DNA from: Enterobacter cloacae | GTDB taxonomy: Bacteria; Pseudomonadota; Gammaproteobacteria; Enterobacterales; Enterobacteriaceae | NCBI RefSeq assembly: GCF_013375935.1 | Contig: NZ_CP056117.1 | Location: forward strand, 248,001-312,000 | DNA length: 64,000 bases | Direction: 5' to 3' | In this document: positions 8,577 to 53,673 of the stretch, piece after piece | Numbering within the stretch: position 1 is the first letter of the stretch | How the letters are laid out: every line of letters starts with the position of its first letter | Position numbers and translations under genes: made by a program | Notes under the pieces: generated by a model | Told to the model about the DNA's origin: nothing | What the model saw: the letters and a program-made list of their open reading frames with translations, nothing else | The model's database searches: none

Positions 8577-10078
8577 ATGACCATTTTTAATAATTATGAA
8601 GTGTGGTTTGTGATTGGCAGCCAGCATCTGTACGGACCGGAAGCGCTACAGCAGGTGACGAAACACGCGGAGCACGTTGTTAACGCCATGAACGCCGAAG
8701 CCAAACTGCCGTGCAAACTGGTGTTAAAGCCGCTGGGGACCACCCCGATGAAATCACCAACATCTGCCGTGACGCCAACTACGACGACAAATGCGCCGGT
8801 CTGGTGGTGTGGCTTCACACCTTCTCACCGGCCAAAATGTGGATCAACGGCCTGGCCATCCTCAACAAGCCGCTGCTGCAGTTCCACACCCAGTTCAATG
8901 CCTCCCTGCCGTGGGACAGCATCGACATGGACTTCATGAACCTGAACCAGACCGCGCACGGCGGCCGCGAATTCGGCTTCATCGGCGCGCGTATGCGTCA
9001 GCAGCATGCGGTCGTGACCGGCCACTGGCAGGACGGTCAGGCGCAGCAGCGTATCGGCGCCTGGATGCGTCAGGCGGTCTCTAAGCAGGATACCCGTCAC
9101 CTTAAAGTGGTGCGTTTCGGCGACAACATGCGTGAAGTTGCCGTAACCGACGGCGACAAAGTGGCCGCGCAGATCAAGTTCGGCTTCTCCGTGAATACCT
9201 GGGCGGTGGGCGACCTGGTGCAGGTGGTGAATGACATCAGCGATGGCGACGTGAACGCGCTGGTAGACGAATACGAAAGCAGCTACCGCCTGACGCCTGC
9301 GGCACAAATTAACGGCGACAAGCGCCAGAACGTGCTGGACGCGGCGCGCATTGAGCTGGGCATGAAGCGCTTCCTGGAACAGGGCGGCTTCCACGCCTTT
9401 ACCACTACCTTTGAAGATCTCCACGGCCTGAAGCAGCTACCGGGCCTGGCGGTACAACGCCTGATGCAGCAGGGCTACGGCTTTGCGGGCGAAGGCGACT
9501 GGAAAACTGCCGCTCTGCTTCGCATCATGAAGGTGATGTCGACCGGTCTGCAGGGCGGCACCTCCTTTATGGAGGACTATACCTACCACTTCGAGAACGG
9601 TAACGATCTGGTGCTCGGCTCGCACATGCTGGAAGTGTGCCCCTCCATCGCGGTTGAAGAGAAGCCGATCCTCGACGTACAGCACCTCGGCATCGGCGGC
9701 AAGGCGGACCCGGCTCGTCTGATCTTCAACACCCGTACCGGCCCGGCCATCAACGCCAGCCTGATCGACCTCGGCGATCGTTTCCGCCTGCTGGTGAACT
9801 GCGTCGATGCGGTTGAAACCCCGCACTCCCTGCCAAAACTGCCGGTCGCGAACGCCCTGTGGAAAGCACAGCCTGACCTGCCAACCGCGTCAGAAGCGTG
9901 GATCGTGGCGGGCGGCGCGCACCACACCGTCTTCAGCCACGCGCTGGATCTTAACGACATGCGTCAGTTCGCCGAGCTGCACGATATCGAGCTGACCGTT
10001 ATCGATAACGATACCCGCCTGCCTGCCTTTAAGGACGCGCTGCGCTGGAACGAAGTCTATTACGGTTCAAAACGTTAA
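8577..10078 (+). pseudogene. araA: L-arabinose isomerase gene with a one-base deletion
   Basis: The intact enzyme converts L-arabinose to L-ribulose. Frame one runs from the ATG at 8577 ([10 protein letters not shown]) and matches AraA up to [10 protein letters not shown]. It then loses homology. AraA sequence resumes in the next frame as [14 protein letters not shown] and continues unbroken to YYGSKR. The jump is at about 8746-8748, where CCCCGATGAA would need one more G (CCG GAT GAA). The whole span is 1502 nt, exactly one base short of the 500-codon E. coli gene. Everything downstream is well conserved, so the lesion is recent or is a sequence error. I prefer the ATG at 8577 to that at 8574 because it lies 7 bases from AAGGA. 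Confidence 0.93.
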
Positions 10079-37304: not shown

Positions 37305-37664
37305 TCAGTGAAAGACATGATCGTCAGCGAAAACCGCATGATTCCCGCACCACCAGCCGCTGTGCTGGCTGATACGGTGAACGTGCCCCTGGCTGCGAAC
37401 CGGCTCATCGCCGAGCGTGCCTGCGACACAGGTAACCACGCCAAACAGCAGCATCCGCTTTTCGAGCTCCGGCCTGTCCGCCAGGCGCGCCACGTCCATC
37501 GCGATGGCATACACCTGCTCTGGCCCTTCGCAGTCCGGATTGCGCAGCGACGGGCGGATCTGATCCAGCGTTCGGATCTCCGGCATTGGGCCAGTGACGT
37601 CGCCTCCGTAGTAAAAGCCCAACGGCTGATGTGTGATGGTTATATCCAGCCCAACGTTAAGCAT
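37305..37664 (-). pseudogene. Truncated cupin-type glucose-6-phosphate isomerase
   Basis: The 119-codon frame begins normally, with an ATG at 37664 preceded by GGGAGG. It matches the cupin-fold (archaeal-type) phosphoglucose isomerase family: GLDITITHQPLGFYYG, RPSLRNPDCEGPEQVYAIAMD, then EPVRSQGHVH and SQHSGW. The homology stops there, about residue 105, and 14 unrelated codons lead to a stop. Full-length relatives are about 190 residues or more. The lost part holds two of the four usual metal ligands (a Glu after HxH and a later His), so the product should be inactive. Neither other frame restores the missing cupin strands, so this looks like a deletion rather than a simple frameshift. It could instead be an expressed short variant. 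Confidence 0.75.
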
Positions 37665-37843: not shown

Positions 37844-38485
37844 CTACGCCTGCTCGTTGAGGGCGTAAGTGACCACCAGCTGTCCTTTTTTTATTTTCAT
37901 CCCCGAGATCTGCATTTCACCGATTTCCGCCAGCTGGGTAACGTGCGTTCCGCCGCACGAGTAGGCCGGAAGATCGCCGAAGCGCACCGTGCGTCTGCCC
38001 GCTTCCGTTTCGGTATAACAACGCAGATTGTCGGCCTTCCAGCCGTTGATGAGGGCGATCAGGGAGCCGGCATCAGGCACTGAGGCCTGCTGCTCCCTGG
38101 CCGTAAAGGTAATCCGGCCTTCACCCGACCAGTGGTGGGCTTTAACCGGTTACCAGCCAAATCGCTCGCCGGCATAACCAATCAAATGGCCCGCGCTGTG
38201 CCAGCGGGAGTGACGCACGCGCGCGCTTTTATCGACCTGAATCTCCACCTCCCCTGGCGCCAGCGGTTTAGCCAGAATATGAACGAGCTGCTCCCCCCGC
38301 AGGCTCACGCTCTCCACGGCGATCCCCGCGATTAAGCCCCGATCCGCCGGCTGCCCTCCTCCCTGCGGATGGAAAAGGGTTTGATCCAGCTCGACGGCGT
38401 AGCGGCCATCAGCTTCTTCAGTGCAGCGGATCGCCTTCACCCGGGCTTCTGTCGCGTCACTGGCGTAATAAAGTCGTTCTGTCAT
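37844..38485 (-). pseudogene. Alanyl-tRNA editing (AlaX-like) protein gene interrupted by one stop codon
   Basis: Read through, the frame encodes 213 codons from the ATG at 38485. The product resembles stand-alone AlaRS editing-domain proteins (tRNA_SAD family) that hydrolyse mischarged Ser- or Gly-tRNA(Ala). The N-terminal LDQTLFHPQGGGQPADRG stretch and the first zinc motif HSAGH (residues 96-100) lie before a TAA at codon 112 (38150-38152). The second zinc motif CGGTH and a family-like C-terminus lie after it in the same frame. GGCTGG-TAA-CCG suggests a CAA to TAA change. Both halves are otherwise intact. The downstream half could be restarted at a GTG (38080). Divergent from the LysR gene. 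Confidence 0.82.
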
Positions 38486-38577
38486 GGTTGTTCTCCTCTG
38501 TACCCTGACAGTATATTCATCACTTACGCATAGATAATCTGCCTTTCAAACAATGCACTCTTGCGTGGTATGCACAA
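38486..38577. promoter_or_regulatory. Divergent promoter region between the AlaX-like and LysR genes
   Basis: This 92-bp gap lies between divergent start codons. On the minus strand TATACT at 38510-38515 is a plausible -10 for the AlaX-like gene. TGCA repeats at 38552-38555 and 38569-38572 enclose a 13-base spacer, close to the LysR start, and could be part of a LysR-family site. Both are weak calls. Confidence 0.3.
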
Positions 38578-39480
38578 ATGAAACCTGCACTGCTTCCCGA
38601 TCTCGCCACCTTCGTTTCCATCGTTGAACACGGTAATTTTTCAACCGCGGCCCGCATTGCGGGCGCGACTCCCTCGGCGATCAGCCGCTGTGTTTCACGC
38701 CTGGAAAAGGAGATGGGATGTAAGTTACTGAACCGCACCACGCGCAAGCTGGCACTTACCGAAACCGGAAAATCCGTTTATGAACATGCGCTGGAGATGC
38801 TGGAAGCAGCACAGCAGGCATTAGATTCCGGCAGCAGTCTGCAAACCATCGCGCAGGGAAAGCTCACACTGAGCGTGCCGAAAGCGGTGGGAAGGTTTGT
38901 GATCCATCCGCTGATACCCGCCTTTCTGGAGCGCTATCCGCAAATAGACGTCTGCCTGCGCCTGGAAGATCGCTACATGGATCTGATCGATGATGGTGTC
39001 GATCTGGCCTTACGGATCACCAACTCACCTTCTCCAGGCCTGTACGGAAAACCGCTGATGCCGGTAAGCCATATTATTTGCGCTACGCCAGAATACCTTC
39101 GTCGCGCGGGCACGCCTCAGCATCCGCAGGACCTCCTGGCGCATAGCTGTATTTCGCTCGGTGAAACCCCGGCCGATTCACGCTGGAAATTTACGCTGCA
39201 GGGGAAAACGGAGGTGGTACAGACGCACGGCCGCTACGCGGCTAACCACACGGGCGTGCGGCTTGACGCGGTTAAACGTCATGTTGGTATCGGAAGCTTA
39301 CCGCTGTTTACGGCGCGTGAGGCGCTTGAAAATGGGGAAATTGTGCAGGTTCTGCCGGAGTGGAATTTCATCGACAGCTATTCAGGTGAGCTATGGCTGC
39401 TGTGGACGCGTAACAAGCATATGCCAGCCAGAATGCGGGCTATGATTAACTATCTGAATGAAAAAATGCCAGTCACCTGA
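38578..39480 (+). CDS. LysR-family transcriptional regulator
   Basis: A 300-residue regulator. The winged helix-turn-helix occupies residues 5-64, with the characteristic FSTAARIAGATPSAISRCVSRLE helix pair, and the effector-binding LysR_substrate domain covers about 90-295. The type is close to the YafC/DsdC-like group with a KPLMPVSHIICATPEYL segment, which does not fix the ligand. It is divergent from the AlaX-like gene, and LysR proteins often control the divergent neighbour, so that gene is its likely target. Its stop codon lies inside the loop of the following terminator. No rihC gene, which fills this place in E. coli K-12, is present. Confidence 0.88.
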   Translation: MKPALLPDLATFVSIVEHGNFSTAARIAGATPSAISRCVSRLEKEMGCKLLNRTTRKLALTETGKSVYEHALEMLEAAQQALDSGSSLQTIAQGKLTLSVPKAVGRFVIHPLIPAFLERYPQIDVCLRLEDRYMDLIDDGVDLALRITNSPSPGLYGKPLMPVSHIICATPEYLRRAGTPQHPQDLLAHSCISLGETPADSRWKFTLQGKTEVVQTHGRYAANHTGVRLDAVKRHVGIGSLPLFTAREALENGEIVQVLPEWNFIDSYSGELWLLWTRNKHMPARMRAMINYLNEKMPVT

Positions 39481-40902: not shown

Positions 40903-40923
40903 GCAAATTGCTCGCTGGTTTTC

Positions 40924-40991
40924 GCCCGGCGGCGCTACGCTTGCCTGGTCTGCGATAACCGCAGGCCGGTGCAGGCGAAGCGCCGCCGGGC
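40924..40991. repeat. BIME-type REP pair between fkpB and lspA
   Basis: GCCCGGCGGCGCT (40924-40936) and its exact reverse complement AGCGCCGCCGGGC (40979-40991) face each other across 42 bases in the 96-bp gap. Each arm is the conserved head of an enterobacterial REP, so this is an inverted REP pair. It may act in mRNA stability or gyrase binding. Confidence 0.85.
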
Positions 40992-40998
40992 AGGTTTG

Positions 40999-52251: not shown

Positions 52252-53551
52252 TCCCTCTGTCGTGTCCGCCTCGCGGGCACGACATCCCTCTGACTGGCGC
52301 AGCCAAATCCCCAATACCAGCCCCATCAGCGATAACGCCAGCACGTACCAGGCAGGCGCCAGGGGTGACACGCCCATCAGTACCGTGACCACAATCGGCG
52401 TCAGCCCGCCAAAAATGGCATACGAGACGTTATAAGAGAAAGAGATCCCGGTGAAGCGAACCTCAGGCGGAAACGCGCGCACCATCACGTACGGTACGGC
52501 GCCCACCACGCCCACGCACAGCCCCACGATGCCGTACAGCATGAACAGCTGTTCAGGATGGCTGCCCGCAAGATGGTAGAACGCCCAGCTCGACGCGGCC
52601 AGCAGCAGGCTGCCGACAATAAAGGTCACGCTGGCCCCGAAACGATCCGCCGCCAGCCCGGCGGCCAGACAGCCAAAACAGAGCATAACGGTGGCGATAC
52701 TGTTCGCCTGTAGCGTCACGGCAGGGGCGAAGCCGTACTGCTTTTGCAGCCAGACCGGCGACATTAAAATCACCACCACGATACCCGCCGACAGCAGCCA
52801 GGTCAGCAGCATCGACACCACCACCGCTTTTTTATGCCGCACCACCACCGTCTTCACCGGCAGCTCCCGGGCCAGCGCCTTGCGCTGCTGCATTTCCAGG
52901 AATATCGGCGTCTCCTGCAGCCAGCGGCGCAGATACATTGCCACCAGGCCAAACACCCCGCCCAGCAGGAACGGAATACGCCAGCCCCAGTCGTGAACGG
53001 CCTGCTGCGTCATGCTGGTATTGATGATGGTTGCGACCACGGAGCCAAGCAGGATCCCAATCGTCAGCCCTGCGGTCAGGGTTCCGCAAGCAATACCGAT
53101 GCGGCGCGCAGGGACGTGCTCGGCGACAAACACCCAGGCGCCCGGCACTTCTCCGCCAATCGCCGCCCCCCTGAAGAATACGCATCAGCAGCAGCAATAG
53201 CGGGGCGATAATGCCCATTGAGTCATAGGTCGGCAGCAGGCCAATGGCCAGCGTCGGCACGGCCATCAGCAGGATACTGAGGGTAAACATCTTCTTACGC
53301 CCCACCAGATCGCCGAAGTGCGCCATCACAATACCGCCCAGCGGGCGCGCCAGGTACCCGGCGGCGAAAATGCCGAAGGTTTGCACCTGGCGCAGCCATT
53401 CCGGTATGTCCGCCGGGAAGAACAGTGCTCCCACCACGGCGGCGAAGAAGACGAAGATGATGAAGTCGTAAAACTCCAGCGCGCCGCCCAGGGCGGCGAG
53501 CGTAAGGGTTTTGTAGTCCTGGCGATTCAGAGGTCGGGTGTTATGTGGCAT
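52228..53551 (-). pseudogene. MHS-type major facilitator transporter gene with a +1 frameshift
   Basis: The N-terminal frame (start ATG 53551) encodes a typical metabolite/H+ symporter start: TLAALGGALEFYDFIIFVFF, then GYLARPLGGIVMAHFGDLVGRKKMF, the MHS signature. After RILQG it shifts. The rest, GGEVPGAWVFVAEHVP through the C-terminus, lies in the next frame. The shift falls in a run of six C on the plus strand (53166-53171); five would restore RILQGAAIGGEVPGAW and a 440-residue protein. Both halves are fully conserved. The substrate is unknown; relatives carry shikimate, proline/betaine, citrate or alpha-ketoglutarate. E. coli K-12 has other genes here. Confidence 0.9.
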
Positions 53552-53673
53552 AGCGAACCATTGTGCATGTATTGTGGATTATTTTTTACAGTAATCGTAA
53601 AGAAAAAATTACTATATCGTAAATCCATTTACACGCTACTGCGGCTGGCGCTAATGTCACATTTTAGTTAACT

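Follow-up and report, generated by a model that had tools for sequence, protein, structure and literature searches.

The window analysed here, a stretch of 64,000 nucleotides (positions 248001–312000 of a single-contig Enterobacter cloacae genome of 4.9 Mb), carries on its minus strand a gene resembling those for AlaX-type tRNA-editing proteins, whose reading frame is interrupted by one TAA codon. The locus raises the question of whether the strain has recently lost this gene by mutation, whether the stop is an error of the assembled sequence, or whether a working product is still made in spite of it.

The interrupted frame and its family

Reading of the minus strand confirmed the TAA noticed in the initial annotation as codon 112 of a frame of 213 codons (Table 1). 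As had also been described, an HxxxH motif (HSAGH) lies before the stop and a CxxxH motif (CGGTH) behind it, and the GTG proposed as a restart codon does open an ORF. From what is known of the family, HSAGH presumably supplies the first two zinc ligands and CGGTH the other two. All four metal ligands are encoded in the window gene, yet the TAA separates them, whereas one chain holds all four in the intact relatives aligned. A search of the strain's own genome found no second copy of alaX.

Table 1. Features of the alaX locus (coordinates are those of the window)
Feature	Position	Strand	Details
AlaX-like gene, read-through frame	38485..37844	-	213 codons; ATG at 38485, TAG at 37846..37844
In-frame TAA, codon 112 (lesion)	38152..38150	-	from reading of the sequence
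5' part of the AlaX-like gene	38150..38485	-	111 codons and TAA; GGGQ motif and HSAGH
3' part, same frame	37844..38149	-	KAHHW.GEGRITF and CGGTH; TAG at end
HSAGH, residues 96–100	38186..38200	-	H96 and H100 invariant in 30/30 aligned rows
CGGTH, residues 177–181	37943..37957	-	C177 and H181 invariant in 30/30 aligned rows
ORF from GTG 38080, possible restart	37844..38080	-	78 codons, open frame
LysR-type regulator gene, divergent	38578..39480	+	300 codons, open frame
Intergenic region of the divergent pair	38486..38577		Shine-Dalgarno-like GAGGAG before alaX; intact in the window
GPI-type (cupin) isomerase gene, truncated remnant	37305..37664	-	runs on into the sequence beyond the deletion
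Deletion junction	37352..37357		about 5.95 kb lost; alignments to the two sides overlap here

The read-through protein narrowly passes the threshold of PF07973 (24.3 bits against a cut-off of 24), with a match at residues 165–201, behind the stop; through this family it is homologous to the second additional domain of alanyl- and threonyl-tRNA synthetases (AlaRS and ThrRS). Sequence comparison with the PDB revealed matches to AlaX-M chains (9iuw; E-value, 2.3e-16) and to AlaRS chains, and intact copies from the genus align over the full length, the best with 84% identity. Since PF07973, the AlaX-M structures and the full-length genus copies all match, the frame is more than a chance opening. 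The AlphaFold model of the read-through protein, based on an alignment of 30 rows, has a mean pLDDT of 91, and AlaX-M structures are among its best matches (TM-score, 0.77 to 9iuw and 0.76 to 2e1b). The score against the NCBIfam AlaXM equivalog model NF040865 is 72 bits, below the cut-off of 300, and the gene is therefore named AlaX-M-like and is not filed as an equivalog; TIGR00344 gave 59 bits over two stretches, also below its cut-off. Judged by its sequence, the window gene is a stand-alone AlaX-like gene, related to the editing domain of AlaRS.

The 30-row alignment comprises sequences from enterobacteria, Serratia, Pseudomonas and one Sutterella MAG. The GGGQ block and the four ligands (H96, H100, C177 and H181) are invariant throughout, as are K115, H118 and F127 (30/30 rows). 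Two of the columns that 90% or more of the other 29 rows share are changed in the window gene, P120 being replaced by Ser and R156 by Cys; Ser at 120 also occurs at locus L046, and Cys at 156 in genomes G005 and G009. AlaXp proteins are described in PMC11295145 as hydrolysing Ser- and Gly-tRNA(Ala), an activity that they share with the editing domain of AlaRS. A narrow literature search found no activity test of the enterobacterial AlaX-M-like branch.

Codon 112 in relatives and selection on the frame

An alaX match was detected in 18 of the 61 genomes of the genus. With the window copy, the frame-broken copy of G001 and the distant copy of G017 set aside, 15 genus copies remained for the count at column 112, where Glu occurs in seven, Lys in three, Gln and Arg in two each, and Phe in one. 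Among the best 80 of 536 loci from a collection of species, the residue is Gln in 33, Met in 19, Arg in 17, His and Leu in four each, and Lys, Glu and Thr in one each; four of these 80 loci (L022, L023, L024 and the frame-broken L070) belong to genus members that were also in the genus search. The initial annotation had noted that a CAA (Gln) would give a continuous protein and advised looking for the Gln codon in relatives. The column proved variable, and the two closest copies carry Glu, so that the assignment of Gln is not upheld by the closest relatives. The same TAA was looked for as well, and a stop at codon 112 was found in 0/15 full-length genus copies and in 0/80 of the best 80 of 536 loci.

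Several apparent stops in other copies were considered and set aside. Those reported in G002, G003 and G055 are the natural ends of the genes, at residue 211, and the stops in G134 and G092, both full-length matches from a family-wide draw, likewise lie behind residue 210. In that draw 77 of 246 genomes gave a match, many of them short and weak and situated inside frames of about 880 codons, which were taken for AlaRS; one weak partial match with a single TAA, in G172, has 34% identity. The copy of G001 contains several stops, yet this genome has a split carA, a poor dapB match and a completeness of 78%, and the copy was therefore left out as an independent case of pseudogene formation. A megablast search found no near DNA matches in E. 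coli genomes and plasmids.

These comparisons bear on the two ways in which the gene might still yield a working product. One is readthrough of the stop, giving some full-length enzyme. The conserved frame after the stop is the one observation in its favour, against which stands that, of the three stop codons, TAA usually permits the least readthrough. A stop conserved together with a selected extension, the pattern of a readthrough gene, occurs in 0/15 genus copies and 0/80 of the best 80 of 536 loci (four genomes being common to both sets). Because the stop is present in no relative examined, this option of the initial annotation is unsupported, and we consider it highly improbable. The other is that two halves are made separately and reassemble, the second being started at the GTG, which is present with its open frame. 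Such a C-terminal part would be without residues 112–135, including the invariant K115, H118 and F127, and all 15 full-length copies from the genus are in one piece. Split copies elsewhere are frame-broken (G001, G088 and G221; genome completeness 78, 49 and 91%, respectively) and look like damage or error. Separate halves, also suggested at the outset, are less probable still, and readthrough and split function taken together are very unlikely to account for the gene.

Selection was examined with a codon model of 15 genus sequences, which omitted codon 112, G001 for its broken frame, and the more distant G017 and G047. On the window branch omega is 0.146, against 0.224 elsewhere, and the two values are not significantly different (2dlnL, 1.65); within this branch, omega is 0.123 before the stop and 0.184 after it. 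An omega of 1 on the window branch was rejected both for the entire gene (2dlnL, 35.3) and for the C-terminal part (2dlnL, 12.2). The frame behind the stop thus still carries the signature of purifying selection, which argues for a very young lesion. When a neutral share was allowed at the end of the branch, values of 0.10 and 0.15 cost the whole gene 1.36 and 2.27 in lnL, respectively; a neutral share above about 10–15% fits clearly worse, which again indicates a young stop. The C-terminal part alone bounds the age loosely, a neutral share of 0.30 costing 1.50 in lnL. In total, this branch model of 15 sequences, with its loose bound for the C-terminal part, detected no relaxed selection after the lesion. 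A very young stop would show no relaxation, and neither would a sequence error or a product that is still in use.

Accuracy of the assembly and fate of the gene

The main rival explanation is that the strain has an intact gene and the TAA arose in sequencing or assembly, because the assembly shows indels at G/C runs elsewhere. In the window, the L-arabinose isomerase gene araA (8577–10075) and an MFS transporter gene (52291–53628) each contain a one-base frameshift at or beside a G/C run. These two frameshifts are likely assembly errors and possibly real. Outside the window, frameshifts at or beside G runs were found in the same genome in a CLC-type chloride channel gene (L183, near 19520) and in a D-Ala-D-Ala ligase gene (L187, near 13920), the family of both being taken from the copy in G044.

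A survey of lesions compared 464 kb of the window genome (G000) with G044, the longest of overlapping ORFs being kept. In the forward direction, 200 ORFs with a good match gave three entries with frameshifts, three with stops and seven partial matches. In the opposite direction, 203 G000 ORFs compared with G044 gave no frameshift entries, three stop entries and nine partial matches. The survey passed araA as intact, its longer piece covering just over 90%, and an antisense ORF masked alaX. With araA included there are four frameshifts in all, each of one or two bases and at or beside G/C runs, and they look like homopolymer errors in the assembly. Of the three forward stop entries, one reflects an over-extended start of kefC and two look by eye like antisense ORFs. 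Within the window, the regions of ribF, kefC and djlA (the last named by eye) had initially seemed to be stopped as well; ribF ends naturally a few codons early, and the stops of kefC and djlA lie within over-extended starts.

The frameshifts, their absence from the reverse comparison and the fully selected look of the frame behind the alaX stop are what a base error would lead one to expect. Against it, the other lesions are indels, while that of alaX is a substitution situated in no long run; the three stop entries among the 200 ORFs of the window genome were judged not to be real nonsense codons; and the genome is a single contig with a completeness of 100 and a contamination of 0.19. On balance, an error at codon 112 seems unlikely, though it is to be taken seriously.

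The better explanation, and probably the correct one, is a recent inactivating nonsense mutation, private among the genomes examined, in a dispensable gene, which makes alaX a pseudogene at its first stage. The initial annotation had named a single recent nonsense mutation among its options, and the evidence fits it well: the stop occurs in the window genome only, both flanks still carry signs of purifying selection, and the start region is intact. As far as the sequence indicates, transcription and the start of translation should still be possible, with the intergenic region, the Shine-Dalgarno-like site and the ATG all unharmed. Translation would then end after 111 codons, where one of the core strands in the predicted fold begins (residue 111), leaving a product without the CxxxH half of its metal site, for which the fold and the motifs predict a loss of activity and stability.

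Two circumstances would let the cell tolerate such a loss, namely an intact AlaRS that carries an editing domain of its own and the optional nature of alaX within the genus. AlaRS of this genome is encoded by a frame of 881 codons that scores 1172 bits and contains the tRNA_SAD domain; with AlaRS editing in place, the cell should be able to do without the stand-alone factor. In the genus alaX is dispensable, 43 of the 61 genomes being without any match.

The LysR partner and the dapB–ispH interval

Divergently to alaX lies a gene for a LysR-type regulator. Blocks of the intergenic region between the two are conserved from the Enterobacter group to Pseudomonas in an alignment of 16 sequences, and are kept in the window. 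Among the best 80 of 536 loci (L022–L101), which span Enterobacteriaceae, Serratia and Pseudomonas, a homologue of the window lysR was found in 78, the exceptions being L044 and L091, and in 77 of the 80 it is transcribed divergently from alaX, at a distance of no more than 200 bp; at L046 the lysR match is partial and further off. In the genus, the intervals of 54 of the 60 other genomes were covered, matches below 40% identity being ignored: lysR and alaX are both present in 14 and both absent from 40. The 40 had been picked for having no alaX in the genus search (39) or a distant one elsewhere (G017), so that the new fact there is the absence of lysR. The 77 divergent pairs among the best 80 loci, together with the joint presence or absence in 14 and 40 intervals, point to a regulated editing module.

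A tentative and fuller reading, which we put forward as possible, is that the LysR protein, encoded divergently, acts on a conserved operator to control an AlaX-type deacylase and senses the amino acid or analogue behind the mischarging; the pair would have stayed together over a range that extends from enterobacteria to Pseudomonas and would be acquired or lost jointly beside dapB–ispH, and the window would present the first step of a loss, with the deacylase stopped and the regulator and operator still standing. In the open-licence text of PMC, we found no literature joining AlaX or alanyl-tRNA editing with LysR, and none joining AlaX with a pseudogene.

The initial annotation held that nothing else looks damaged. 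This is true of the remaining alaX frame and fails for its surroundings, where the adjoining cluster has been deleted. The deletion removed the rest of the isomerase gene, the genes for mannose-type PTS IIA, IIB, IIC and IID, a manA-like gene and a LacI-type regulator gene. The isomerase fragment before the junction is identical to the G044 protein at 97 of 104 residues; the remnant itself has no Pfam hits, and its family (PF06560) was taken from the intact relative. In seven relatives (G005, G044, G021, G009, G029, G035 and G012) the whole cluster lies between lysR–alaX and dapB and comprises the GPI-type isomerase, mannose/sorbose-type PTS IID, IIC, IIB and IIA, the manA-like gene (named by eye, with no Pfam hit) and the LacI-type regulator. 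In seven others (G002, G003, G055, G052, G006, G042 and G001) alaX adjoins dapB directly. Of the 40 intervals that yielded no alaX and no lysR, 11 contain the isomerase/PTS cluster.

The dapB–ispH interval (L102–L115 and L139–L178) is a hot spot: within a single genus it takes at least four architectures, which differ in the presence of lysR–alaX and of the PTS cluster. From these architectures and the deletion it follows that the window sits at a place of frequent gene gain and loss. A tree of the locus (55 taxa, 2 kb) required ten parsimony changes in the presence of lysR–alaX, a count that comes from one short locus. Elsewhere in the window, an intergenic stretch at 40920–40992, between lspA-like and fkpB-like genes (named by eye), has many matches elsewhere in the genus and is REP-like.

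Taken alone, the stop amounts to a private nonsense allele of an ordinary kind or to an error in one base. Even so, it offers a useful example of the way in which a stand-alone protein of the tRNA-editing type can be dropped by a bacterium whose AlaRS stays intact. The more interesting lead is the conserved LysR–alaX pair, which suggests that editing factors of this type may be expressed in response to particular conditions.

Recent nonsense pseudogenes are a well-known kind of feature in bacterial genomes, and the window gene resembles them in its single private stop, its otherwise intact frame, the dispensability of the gene and the lability of the locus, with no known difference. With the AlaRS editing domain (structures 2zze and 3wqy) it shares a homologous editing core and the metal motifs; unlike AlaRS, the window protein is without an aminoacylation domain, the AlaRS of this genome being a separate intact gene. 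In form it is like AlaX-M of Pyrococcus (9iuw and 2e1b), likewise stand-alone, with a length of about 213 residues, the same fold (TM-score, 0.76–0.77) and the GGGQ, HxxxH and CxxxH motifs, from which the window gene differs in its NCBIfam score (72 bits against a cut-off of 300) and in the TAA that interrupts it.
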